Virus record (IMG/VR): IMGVR_UViG_3300040960_002108
Coordinates: 1-36,633 of that record
Direction: 5' to 3' (one strand)
Length of the DNA stretch: 36,633 nucleotides
Origin: a virus
The translations under genes were made by a program, and so were the position numbers. The notes beneath the pieces are model-generated. The model was given only the letters and a program-made list of their open reading frames with translations. It made no database searches and was not told where the DNA came from. Below, piece by piece: positions 3,310 to 7,047 of the stretch (positions are counted from its first letter, which is position 1; every line of letters starts with the position of its first letter).

Positions 3310-3723
3310 TTAGACGTTGGCTTGGAGGCGGAGCTTGAGGGATGCCACGCGCTCACGGTGGGGAAGATCGCGGGTGACATACCAAGCGCGGATGATCTCA
3401 AACCAATCGCTCATGGGGATGATCACGTCACGGCCCAGGTCACGCTTGAGGTGGCCCTCGATCTCGTTGACCATTTGAAGGTTGTGGTAGTGCTTAGGGC
3501 CAAGGCCCATCACGCTGTCATAGATGCTGAGATGCTTGAGGAAGAAGCTGATCTCATCGCCCGTCATGCGGCGCTCAAGCCAGCCGTCACGCTTGGGGAG
3601 CTCCCTGATCTGTGGCTTGTCACCAAAGAGCAGTTGAAAGAGGTGGGCAGCCGCCGCGAGCATCAAGGCGGCGATGGAGAGGAGACAGAAGATGATGAAG
3701 GTGTCAGCGGCGGCGTTGCTCAT
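3310..3723 (-). CDS. Small protein with one N-terminal membrane helix
   Basis: The protein has 137 residues. Residues 8-33 (about FIIFCLLSIAALMLAAAAHLF) form one clear transmembrane segment, followed by a soluble domain rich in charged residues (for example LPKRDGWLERRMTGDEISFFLKHLSIYD). Its start overlaps the stop of the repressor gene by four bases, so the two are translationally linked, and recT follows after 44 bases. I do not recognise a family. Position in the early operon suggests an accessory function such as superinfection exclusion or membrane anchoring of early proteins, but nothing in the sequence proves it. Confidence 0.7.
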   Translation of the reverse strand: MSNAAADTFIIFCLLSIAALMLAAAAHLFQLLFGDKPQIRELPKRDGWLERRMTGDEISFFLKHLSIYDSVMGLGPKHYHNLQMVNEIEGHLKRDLGRDVIIPMSDWFEIIRAWYVTRDLPHRERVASLKLRLQANV

Positions 3724-3953
3724 GAGTGGTGAATCCTTGTGATGGTCATGAATTGGTCTGGGGTGTATGTGGTGAGCCCTGTGAGGCGGTTGGCGGCGAG
3801 CGCTAGTGATGTGCAGACATGGATTGAGGGTGAGGCATAACCGCCCAAGATGCGGGTCAAGTATGCTCGGCTGATTTGTGCCTCATCACATAGATGGGTT
3901 AAGGTGTAGCGCTCGACCTTGAGGTCTGTCTTGAGCTTGTCTCTGAGGGTCAT
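3720..3953 (-). CDS. Cro/CI-type helix-turn-helix repressor
   Basis: The protein has only 77 residues and is essentially one DNA-binding domain. The helix-turn-helix lies in about residues 17-45 (YTLTHLCDEAQISRAYLTRI, then LGGYASPS), the pattern of the XRE/Cro/CI class. There is no dimerisation or autocleavage domain, so it resembles Cro more than CI. A strong GGAGG lies 5 bases upstream of the ATG. It is the first gene of the leftward operon and faces the initiator gene across a divergent promoter region containing a palindrome (4000-4014), its most likely operator. With no integrase present, it probably times early transcription rather than keeping a prophage silent. Confidence 0.8.
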   Translation of the reverse strand: MTLRDKLKTDLKVERYTLTHLCDEAQISRAYLTRILGGYASPSIHVCTSLALAANRLTGLTTYTPDQFMTITRIHHS

Positions 3954-3986
3954 GGTGACCTCCTATCAGTTGGTGATGAGTACTGA

Positions 3987-4014
3987 GTTATCATCCTTAT
4001 TGACCTGTAGTCAA
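3987..4014 (-). promoter_or_regulatory. Leftward early promoter
   Basis: Read leftward, -35 TTGACT (4014-4009) and -10 GATAAC (3992-3987) are 16 bp apart, placing the transcript start near 3980. That is upstream of the GGAGG (3963-3959) of the repressor gene. The palindrome at 4000-4014 overlaps the -35. Confidence 0.5.
4000..4014. promoter_or_regulatory. Palindromic operator TTGAC-N5-GTCAA
   Basis: A perfect inverted repeat, TTGAC (4000-4004) and GTCAA (4010-4014) with a 5-base spacer, overlaps the leftward -35 box and lies about 30 bp upstream of the rightward -35. It has the same 5-5-5 geometry and TGAC/GTCA arms as the origin iterons (GTGAC-N5-GTCAC). Either the Cro-like protein or the initiator could bind here. 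Confidence 0.5.
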
Positions 4015-4044
4015 GATTTATTTGCAACTTAATTTTAATCTGCC

Positions 4045-4073
4045 TTGACCCAAGTAGCAAGCTGACATATACA
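4045..4073 (+). promoter_or_regulatory. Rightward early promoter for the replication genes
   Basis: TTGACC (4045-4050) and TATACA (4068-4073) are separated by exactly 17 bp. The predicted transcript start near 4080 lies after an upstream in-frame ATG at 4073. This supports translation starting at 4103 behind AAGGAG. Confidence 0.65.
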
Positions 4074-4102
4074 TGAAGCTCCACCGCGACAAGGAGTTCA
4101 TC

Positions 4103-5122
4103 ATGAATGAAATGAATGCTCGATTGGCCGTCATGGCGGTCGAGGAGCTCACCGCAGCTCAGAAGCTGATCATGCTCTATCTACTGACAAGAGTGGATTG
4201 GAGCTCATGGGCGGGGTCAGTCAGTACCAATGAGATTGAGCTTGGGACGCGCCAGAGTGGGCGCAACATCAAGAGGAGCCTCAAGGCGCTCGCTGAGCTT
4301 GGCTACATTGAGCGCGAGATCATGAGGCGAGATGACGGCCTCCATCACAAGTCAGCGATCAAGGTCATCATCTCCAAGCTTGGTGACAGAAAGTCACCAC
4401 CTACCAAGAAAGACACTAGTGACAGAAAGTCACCACCCATAGTGACAGAAAGTCACCACCAAGACTCTGAGGGTAGTGACAGAAAGTCACCATCAGTGGT
4501 GACAGAATGGCCCAAGGGTAGTGACAGAAAGTCACAAGGGGTGGTGACAAATTGGCCCAAGGGTAGTGACAGAAAGTCACCCAATATCAATAAGGATCAA
4601 TATAATATCAATATAGATCAATCTAACATCAATGAGGCTGAGCCTGAGGCTGAGAGCACACGCGAGGCTGAGGAGGAGCTCAGAGCTGCTCAGTGGGATC
4701 AGATCATGGCCAAGGCTGAGGAGATCCCGCCACCACCTCCACCGCCCACAATGTCACAGCGTGAGGATGGTTTATATATTCTCAGTCACATCAATGATGA
4801 TCTGGACTACAGACGTGAGGTCTATCGTGAGATCACTCATCACAAGCGACAAGACATAAGGGACGCTCTGTGGGCGCGGGGGAATGATGAGCTATTCCAC
4901 AAGATGATGGGCGAGCTCATCGCTCCACGCTCAGCCATTGATTGGGTCACCTTCATCAGCTCAGGTCACAAGCCAAGCGTCTCCACGCCAGCGGCGCCAC
5001 CTCCCAAGCCAACCACATGGACGATCACCGTTGACCAACAACAGAAGATCAAGGAGGCTGACAGCGCGTGGCTTAGCGCCGACTATGGAACAGCAGACAA
5101 GAAGAATGGAGGATGGCATTGA
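4103..5122 (+). CDS. Replication initiator (lambda O-like), with the origin inside its gene
   Basis: The protein has about 339 residues. The start at 4103 is chosen because AAGGAG (4091-4096) lies 6 bases upstream and the promoter places the transcript start after the earlier ATG at 4073. Residues 1-85 look like a winged helix-turn-helix (AQKLIMLYLLTRV, then LGTRQSGRNIKRSLKALAELGYI), as in phage O and DnaD-type initiators. Residues about 94-160 are a low-complexity linker repeating SDRKSP, encoded by the iterons. It is followed by an Asn/Ile-rich stretch from the AT-rich region, then acidic and poly-proline segments and a C-terminal domain that probably contacts the helicase loader. The loader gene overlaps its end by ten bases. 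As in lambda O, the protein likely binds repeats within its own gene. It shares no long recognisable similarity with O, so the assignment rests on architecture. Confidence 0.8.
   Translation: MNEMNARLAVMAVEELTAAQKLIMLYLLTRVDWSSWAGSVSTNEIELGTRQSGRNIKRSLKALAELGYIEREIMRRDDGLHHKSAIKVIISKLGDRKSPPTKKDTSDRKSPPIVTESHHQDSEGSDRKSPSVVTEWPKGSDRKSQGVVTNWPKGSDRKSPNINKDQYNINIDQSNINEAEPEAESTREAEEELRAAQWDQIMAKAEEIPPPPPPPTMSQREDGLYILSHINDDLDYRREVYREITHHKRQDIRDALWARGNDELFHKMMGELIAPRSAIDWVTFISSGHKPSVSTPAAPPPKPTTWTITVDQQQKIKEADSAWLSADYGTADKKNGGWH
4383..4580. other. Replication origin: iteron array
   Basis: Six perfect copies of GTGACAGAAAGTCAC occur at 4383-4397, 4419-4433, 4442-4456, 4476-4490, 4521-4535 and 4566-4580. 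Two half copies keep only the left arm, at 4499 and 4544. Each perfect copy is an inverted repeat with 5-bp arms and a 5-bp spacer. From 4476 onward the starts are 22-23 bp apart, about two helical turns. The last 90 bp are a 45-bp duplication (half copy, TTGGCCCAAGGGTA-type spacer, full copy). An AT-rich stretch follows at once. This is the layout of lambda ori inside gene O and of iteron plasmids. Confidence 0.85.
4581..4634. repeat. AT-rich unwinding region with phased ATCAAT repeats
   Basis: ATCAAT occurs five times, starting at 4586, 4596, 4607, 4617 and 4628, with alternating spacing of 10 and 11 bp. This equals a 21-bp tandem repeat (4583-4603, 4604-4624 and part of a third) holding two motifs each. 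It adjoins the last iteron and is the most AT-rich stretch nearby, so it is the likely DNA-unwinding element. Confidence 0.7.
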
Positions 5123-5919
5123 TCGACTACCACAACATCACCGCTGAGAACTTCCCCGCTGAGGAGTGGCTCAGCTCCTCAGGCTACCTCAGCACAACGC
5201 CGCTCCCTTATTGCGGTGAGTGCTTTGAGGGGATTGTCTATGAGAAGCCACCACCACCCACGGCTCCCATCGCTCGCCGCTGCCCAACCTGCACCCCGCT
5301 CCGCTCGAGGCTCAAGCGATTGGAGGAGGCCCGCCTCCCCTTCCTCGCTCATCAGCACACCTTGAATGGCTATGAGTGGGACAGTCCAGAGCAGCGGGAT
5401 AGGGTGGGCGCTGTGCTTGATTGGATTCATGGCAACACCGACCCCATTGACAAGCCCGCCGTCATGCTGTGGGGCAAGCCTGGCAACGGCAAGAGCACAA
5501 TCCTCCACATCCTCGCCAAACACGCGATCTTTGAGGGGAAGCGCGCTCTGTTCCTCACCCATGAGGGGCTCTTTGCTGATATCCGCGCTAGTTGGAAGGC
5601 CAACAGCCTCAACCTCCATGAGATGCTTGAGAATGTTGACCTCCTCTGTCTTGACGAGCTTGGCGGCCTTGGTGGTGGCGGGCGATGGTCTGAGTGGTAC
5701 AGGTCACAGACTAGGGAGATGATTGGCGCCATTTATGACCGATGGGCAGCCAAGACCCTCAGCGTGGTCGCAACCTCCAACCTAGCTCCCAAGACGATCA
5801 TCCATGACCTATGCGACAACAACAGCGCGGTGAGGTCGAGGCTTGGCGCGATCTTTGGGCGGCCTGTGCAGATGATAGGCCATGATCGGCGCGCTGGCGT
5901 TGATGATGGATGGGGTTAA
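5113..5919 (+). CDS. DnaC-like helicase loader (AAA+ ATPase)
   Basis: The protein has 268 residues. An N-terminal zinc-finger pattern has two CXXC pairs (C34/C37 and C57/C60). The AAA+ domain has a Walker A GKPGNGKST at 121-129, a Walker B LLCLDE at 177-182, a sensor-1 region VATSN at 219-223, and arginines at 241 and 243 that could serve as fingers. This matches DnaC/IstB-type loaders that place the replicative helicase on melted origin DNA. It lies directly after the origin-bearing initiator and overlaps it by ten bases, so the two form a replication pair like lambda O-P. GGAGG abuts the ATG at 5113; an in-frame TTG at 5119 with 6-base spacing is an alternative start. No phage helicase is encoded, so host DnaB is the likely client. 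Confidence 0.88.
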   Translation: MALIDYHNITAENFPAEEWLSSSGYLSTTPLPYCGECFEGIVYEKPPPPTAPIARRCPTCTPLRSRLKRLEEARLPFLAHQHTLNGYEWDSPEQRDRVGAVLDWIHGNTDPIDKPAVMLWGKPGNGKSTILHILAKHAIFEGKRALFLTHEGLFADIRASWKANSLNLHEMLENVDLLCLDELGGLGGGGRWSEWYRSQTREMIGAIYDRWAAKTLSVVATSNLAPKTIIHDLCDNNSAVRSRLGAIFGRPVQMIGHDRRAGVDDGWG

Positions 5920-6657: not shown

Positions 6658-6678
6658 ACTAATCTAATGGAGGACACC

Positions 6679-7047
6679 ATGAACCATGTCATCTTGATTG
6701 GCAACCTTGGGCGCGACCCTCAAGCCCGTGGCTCTGATCGCAATATCGCCAGCTTCTCCTTAGCGGTCGAGCACAGGAAGAAGGGCGGCGAGAAACAAAC
6801 CCAATGGTTTGACTGTGTAGCCTTTGGCAAGACAGGGGAGGCCCTCCTCGCTCACGCCAAGAAGGGCGATAAGCTCGCCATCACAGGAAAGATCAAGACC
6901 AAGGTCTGGGAGCGCGATGGCATCAAGCAACAAGATCTAGACATTGTGATAGAGACTTGGCAGTTTGTGGGGAGCAAGCCCACCTCAAACGCCATCGGCA
7001 ATCAAGGCCCCGCCACATGGGAGCCTGATGGCAATAAGTGGCCTTGA
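6679..7047 (+). CDS. ssb: Single-stranded DNA-binding protein
   Basis: The protein has 122 residues. The start at 6679 is chosen because GGAGG (6669-6673) lies 5 bases upstream; the in-frame ATG at 6667 sits on that site. The OB-fold pattern is clear: MNHVILIGNLGRDPQ, then NIASFSLAVE, QTQWFDCVAFGKTGEAL and KGDKLAITGKIKTKVWERDG. It coats single-stranded DNA during replication and RecT recombination. The C terminus ends WEPDGNKWP and lacks the acidic tip ending in IPF of bacterial SSBs, which usually recruits host partners. It is the first gene of the long rightward operon. Confidence 0.92.
   Translation: MNHVILIGNLGRDPQARGSDRNIASFSLAVEHRKKGGEKQTQWFDCVAFGKTGEALLAHAKKGDKLAITGKIKTKVWERDGIKQQDLDIVIETWQFVGSKPTSNAIGNQGPATWEPDGNKWP

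Follow-up and report, generated by a model that had tools for sequence, protein, structure and literature searches.

The window, a complete IMG/VR viral contig of 36,633 bp, contains a replication initiator gene with an array of short repeats (iterons) inside it, an AT-rich tract directly beside the array, and a helicase loader gene whose start (5113) overlaps the initiator stop (5122) (Table 1). Genes for a single-strand DNA-binding protein (SSB) and for RecT, both identified with Pfam, lie near the initiator and loader genes. At the left end of the contig, positions 396-2279 of the minus strand encode a protein of 627 aa that contains an HSP90/gyrase-type ATPase domain and has no PHROG match.

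Table 1. Features of the initiator locus in the window and the observations on which each assignment is based.
Feature	Position	Strand	Basis or remark
Initiator gene, 339 aa	4103..5122	+	PHROG hits, AlphaFold model, start conserved in relatives
N-terminal winged-helix DNA-binding domain, coding part	4106..4370	+	Helices and strands of the model, residues 13-98
Iteron 1, perfect GTGACAGAAAGTCAC	4383..4397	+	Read as (G)DRKS
Iteron 2, perfect GTGACAGAAAGTCAC	4419..4433	+	Exact repeat
Iteron 3, perfect GTGACAGAAAGTCAC	4442..4456	+	Second permitted frame, VTESH
Iteron 4, perfect GTGACAGAAAGTCAC	4476..4490	+	Exact repeat
Degraded iteron GTGACAGAATGGCCC, left arm intact	4499..4513	+	Same place degraded in all relatives covering it
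Iteron 5, perfect GTGACAGAAAGTCAC	4521..4535	+	Exact repeat
Degraded iteron GTGACAAATTGGCCC, left arm intact	4544..4558	+	Array comparison
Iteron 6, perfect GTGACAGAAAGTCAC	4566..4580	+	Exact repeat
Likely unwinding element, AT-rich, 21-bp tandem repeat AATATCAATA..GATCAATAT	4583..4622		Lowest stability, repeat, conservation
DnaC-like AAA+ helicase loader	5113..5919	+	PHROG DnaC-like loader, E 1e-17; Pfam hits above cut-off to IstB_IS21 and AAA
Single-strand DNA-binding protein of the same replication/recombination module	6667..7047	+	Pfam SSB, E 5e-22

Although the initiator ORF can be extended upstream to an ATG at 4073, giving 349 residues, we preferred the 339-residue protein proposed in the earlier note, which starts at ATG 4103 after AAGGAG, because homology among relatives begins there. 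The full-length AlphaFold model was of moderate quality (mean pLDDT 66, pTM 0.32) and consisted of a confidently modeled N-terminal winged helix, a linker modeled as disordered (residues 106-196, pLDDT <50) and a C-terminal helical domain. The recognition helix carries Arg64 and Arg68 (349-residue numbering), both invariant among relatives (set A2). A fold search of the PDB with the initiator returned winged-helix matches, mainly transcription regulators, with a best E of 2.6e-3 and thus none below 0.001, and a PDB sequence search gave nothing significant. PHROG replication initiation and O-like families (phrog_428, 678, 270, 345 and 391) matched across the domain and linker with E-values of 7e-8 to 1e-6. 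With Pfam, there was no hit to Phage_rep_O (PF04492), which lambda O itself matches at 5.7e-36; RepA_N (PF06970) was absent from the hits, and HTH_36 (PF13730) scored 14.5 bits, under its gathering score of 25. A custom HTH_36-type model built from iteron-bearing initiators, and trained in part on the window's own relatives, matched the protein at E ≤ 0.01, with the alignment running through the recognition helix. Searches of cultured phages found no relative of the initiator and no useful match to the terminase or loader, and genome contigs searched with initiator set A2 contained no relative.

The array was found as the earlier note had described it, with six perfect copies and two half copies in the linker-coding part of the gene (codons 104-170). 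The six exact copies of GTGACAGAAAGTCAC in the window all fall within 4383-4580, and no further match with three or fewer mismatches occurs elsewhere in the 36,633 bp. In 100 dinucleotide shuffles, the mean number of matches was 0.93 and the maximum three, with none of the 100 reaching seven. Each perfect copy is a palindrome of the form GTGAC-N5-GTCAC, which places its half-sites 10 bp apart. The degraded copies at 4499 (three mismatches) and 4544 (five mismatches) keep GTGACA and have lost the right arm. Successive copies are spaced by 36, 23, 34, 23, 22, 23 and 22 bp, so that the claimed 22-23 bp phasing of the last five elements was measured as 23/22/23/22. The AT-rich DNA expected right after the repeats proved to be the 40-bp stretch of lowest stability in the entire contig by nearest-neighbor energy. 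One proposed check did not come out as expected: GC skew falls from positive values to slightly negative ones across 4500, the reverse of the usual origin pattern, and we set it aside as evidence because it is also confounded by divergent genes.

The repeats are conserved in relatives as DNA. A search with a two-copy pattern showed that 15 other viral contigs have the identical 15-mer in their homologous gene, at spacings of 23, 34 or 45 bp. Across these relatives, translation through the 15-mer uses two frames, giving DRKS in one and VTESH in the other; the remaining frame is closed, since it would place the stop TGA of GTGAC in phase. Among ten initiators, DRKS or DKKS is encoded by GACAGAAAGTCA in 47 of 48 cases, and VTESH by identical codons in all 18. 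Codon choice in nine initiators shows how distinct the iterons are from their surroundings: Arg is AGA in 42/42 cases inside iterons versus 11/176 elsewhere in the gene, and Glu is GAA in 16/16 versus 26/238, the relatives' genes otherwise using CGN or AGG for Arg and GAG for Glu. Codon choice was used in place of a pairwise same-codon test, which we dropped as partly circular, since the masked codons are exact by definition. The spacer DNA between iterons diverges among relatives while the 15-mer stays constant. Thus, iterons conserved at synonymous sites, which the earlier note had suggested looking for, were found, and the two frames and fixed codons mean that selection on the protein fails to explain their conservation.

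The length of the array varies among relatives by whole 57-bp units (full-23-full-34), and all relatives covering its end share the order full-23-degraded-22-full-23-degraded-22-full followed by AT-rich DNA, apart from a single mismatch in the final copy of L020; L007 and L016 are cut short. In these relatives, the degraded copies keep GTGACA, and the right arm has been lost in ways that differ between lineages. Constant degradation at a conserved position fits the suggestion that the half copies may be weaker binding sites, and supports the view that their weakness is a selected feature.

Relatives that have the linker but not these DNA repeats, which had been named as a possible argument against an origin, carry another DNA-binding domain and other iterons. 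In L026-L028, the flanks are about 85-99% identical to the window, but identity is only 44-67% over 4100-4580, where the DNA-binding domain has diverged and the iterons are of a different type (e.g., AGTGTCAAGAAAGACACT); despite this, the AT-rich tract and the C-terminal half are retained. The swapped block in L026 comprises ∼4100-4580 alone, whereas in L027 and L028 it also takes in the divergent repressor region; L029 has a third iteron type. Domain and sites have moved together, as expected if the domain reads the sites. Separately, the 3720-4100 region, which comprises a repressor-like gene and divergent intergenic DNA, has been replaced among relatives independently of the iteron cassette, being kept in L026 and different in L025, L027, L028 and L029.

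The earlier note had recognized neither the iteron nor the initiator. That the protein falls outside the lambda O family holds by Pfam; the iteron type, on the other hand, proved widespread among HTH_36-type initiators. A blind DNA search for two neighboring GTGAC-N5-GTCAC sites separated by 2-32 bp returned at least 119 stretches, versus 5 for the reversed palindrome. Among the matches listed, 72 of 109 new loci hold the site pair inside one non-scaffold ORF, and of 69 such ORFs scanned (window gene included), 45 are replication initiators by PHROG and 42 match HTH_36 by Pfam. In the cultured Vibrio phage 1.151.O, the HTH gene contains four such sites. A three-copy pattern scan of bacterial genome records placed the class in HTH genes of Bacillota, Actinomycetota, Chloroflexota and Pseudomonadota; of the 32 hits, only about a third were clearly of this in-gene kind, and no close relative of the window phage was among them.

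These searches also returned sites in other settings. Within a scaffold-like gene of ∼250 aa (ESDATSR..ESDVTSQ) that is not an initiator, GTGACGTTACGTCAC and GTGACGTTGCGTCAC form a conserved pair 33 bp apart, at L030:3029-3076 and, among the matches listed, at 23 similar loci (e.g., L044, L096 and L138). The 198-kb contig IMGVR_UViG_3300022562_002256 has close GTGGC-N5-GCCAC pairs with 18-bp spacing at L389, L390, L406 and L410. Regular GTGAC-N5-GTCAC arrays outside long ORFs, at L157:304-410 (46-bp spacing, Bacteroidota record) and L163:3904-3998 (20-bp spacing, Sorangium), are possibly origins or operators located outside initiator genes.

Some relatives of the iteron-bearing initiators, in mEp021, BUCT708, PseuP_222 and ST64B, lack GTGAC sites. 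Their absence was not counted against the origin and instead prompted a test for covariation between protein residues and site bases. Initiators with the helix 3 sequence RSVMRHI have GTGAC sites; in near-identical relatives the helix reads RSVMNHI and the sites are GTGCA or GTGAA. Reciprocal searches for other site classes, by DNA pattern alone, brought the set to 192 distinct initiators, in which we followed the recognition-helix position aligned with Arg68 of the window protein (ref 56; 349-residue numbering). Arg occupies ref 56 in 51/52 GTGAC and 5/6 GTGGC genes, but in only 1/71 GTGCA and 0/63 GTGAA genes. The absence of Arg from GTGAA genes, whose sites differ from GTGAC at base 5 alone, had been predicted before the scan. 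The single GTGAC exception has Lys, and the single GTGCA gene with Arg has a short, doubtful alignment. Ref 56 holds 0.81 bits of information about half-site base 5, compared with 0.24 for the next best column of the domain. The A3 family scan consists mostly of redundant enterobacterial prophages. After clustering of the initiators at 60, 50, 40 and 35% identity, the rule holds throughout, with Arg counts going from 36/38 versus 1/73 at 60% down to 14/14 versus 1/27 at 35%. In disjoint pairs of opposite class, the residue differs as expected in 44 of 45, the last pair being Lys versus Lys. The first site lies 21-106 codons downstream of the ref 56 residue in all 239 ORFs checked, so the search itself does not force the link between residue and base, and none of the 239 contains more than one site of another class.

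An Arg facing the G opposite C5, or an Asn or Gln facing A5, would be ordinary chemistry between a helix and the DNA groove. The A5 side is looser, with Asn, Ser, Thr, Asp, Tyr and others occurring with A, and for base 4 either ref 50 or ref 52 may play a part, the GTGGC sample here being six genes. As far as a statistical covariation between sequences can tell, these data suggest that a single initiator residue decides one letter of the recognized site. We found no description of this rule in the open-access literature searched, and it may be new. Mixed GTGCA and GTGAA half-sites occur in the linker of L187-L263 (ST64B-like Salmonella and E. coli prophages), which have RSVMNHI helices; these well-known prophages offer a test ground for the code.

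How else might the array be explained? The linker peptides could be selected as protein, with the DNA repeats a by-product of recent duplication, since the 45- and 57-bp units are whole codons and copy number varies among relatives. However, one 15-bp sequence encodes DRKS or VTESH depending on the frame, its synonymous codons are fixed and unlike those in the rest of the gene, and the spacers diverge where the 15-mer does not, so we regard this explanation as highly improbable. We give equally little credence to the idea that the palindromes work by folding into hairpins in single-stranded DNA or RNA, for instance as priming or packaging signals. The 198-nt segment does fold better as single-stranded DNA than its shuffles (z −5.2), but any array of perfect palindromes would do so, the conserved weak copies lose the stem, and covariation of the half-site with a recognition-helix residue is not predicted by a hairpin role.

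A further explanation, also unlikely, is that the repeats are operators through which the initiator or another regulator controls its own gene or the replication operon, with the origin elsewhere. Palindromic winged-helix sites look alike in regulation and initiation, and the fold search returned mainly transcription regulators. Against this, the sites are found 280-480 bp into the gene, adjoining the least stable DNA of the contig and with the loader gene next; phased arrays of such sites recur within the initiator genes of many phages; and the AT-rich tract is retained where the iterons differ.

We consider it highly likely that the locus is a phage replication origin of the lambda type embedded in its own initiator gene, at which winged-helix binding, opening and loading would take place and Arg68 would read base 5. 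The resemblance to lambda ori drawn in the earlier note fits every test run, including the repeats, their phasing, the AT-rich tract, the loader and conservation at the DNA level. The protein that recognizes the origin is most likely the initiator encoded by the gene around it, and most likely it works like lambda O despite failing the Pfam test for that family. Initiator dimers would use the N-terminal winged helix to bind each GTGAC-N5-GTCAC palindrome, whose half-sites lie on one face of the DNA helix, with the Arg68 residue reading base pair 5 of every half-site. Copies phased by about two helical turns would build a nucleoprotein complex that opens the adjoining AT-rich tract, after which the C-terminal domain and the DnaC-like loader would recruit the host helicase. 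The degraded copies, placed between strong ones beside the AT-rich tract, would serve as weak sites. The repeats, phasing, DNA-level constraint, cassette swap, covariation and stability minimum were computed directly; binding, dimerization, opening, loading and the weak-site role we infer, taking the order of binding, opening and loading from lambda (PMC7466680, PMC4488673), with pSK41/pPR9 as a second source (PMC5703833). The DNA-binding domain and iterons would together make up a single specificity cassette, exchanged as a whole by recombination.

Lambda, Stx phages, P22 and L already provide examples of in-gene iterons (PMC7466680, PMC8022706). As in the window, the lambda iterons lie mid-gene between the DNA-binding and C-terminal domains, 20-24 bp apart and in several frames, with an AT-rich tract on one side and the loader gene next, and the 5-5-5 geometry is shared by lambda iteron 1 (CCCTC-N5-GAGGG); the lambda sites are documented to differ in affinity and to vary in number (PMC7466680). 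The lambda iteron sequence is different, however, and the window has an N-terminal domain without a PF04492 match, a DnaC-like AAA+ loader and more copies, with degraded ones alternating. Gene 18 of P22 and L likewise provides related initiators with different iterons, each in its own gene; these phages have a DnaB-type helicase instead of a loader, and no cassette-scale natural hybrid as clean as L026 is described in the text consulted (PMC8022706). In the pSK41/pPR9 Rep proteins (RepA_N and its HTH_36 hybrid), the origin boxes are central in rep and bound by the N-terminal domain, but these are plasmids and the C-terminal domain binds DnaG (PMC5703833). In pPR9, ∼500 bp encoding the N-terminal domain and origin of a pSK41-type rep has been replaced by an HTH_36 (pfam13730) domain of a phage-like protein together with its origin, and the plasmid replicates (PMC5703833). 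HTH_36 and PHROG O-like phage initiators (e.g., Vibrio phage 1.151.O and L148) share the arms, spacing, linker location and two-frame reading, and differ in the N5 centre and, outside the closest relatives, in their C-terminal domains. The literature searched contained no experimental origin mapping for HTH_36-type phages with GTGAC-N5-GTCAC sites.

With this origin, the textbook in-gene arrangement is extended to phages that are uncultured and use a different DNA-binding domain, and such origins can be found in viral sequence from the DNA pattern alone. It also seems probable that a one-residue recognition code governs the in-gene origins of HTH_36-type phage initiators in several bacterial phyla, with a half-site of GTGxx and a 5-bp spacer, in which Arg would specify C at base 5 and Asn, Ser, Thr, Asp, Tyr and others would pair with A. 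With site and reader in one gene, the pair would evolve by concerted change and by whole-cassette swaps and, if the code is true, these changes would let related phages avoid recognizing one another's origins. Because reader and site share a gene, many phage genomes become labeled examples of helix-DNA specificity, and the specificity of initiators for their origins, a long-standing question of phage compatibility and mosaic evolution, becomes testable by single residue and base changes.
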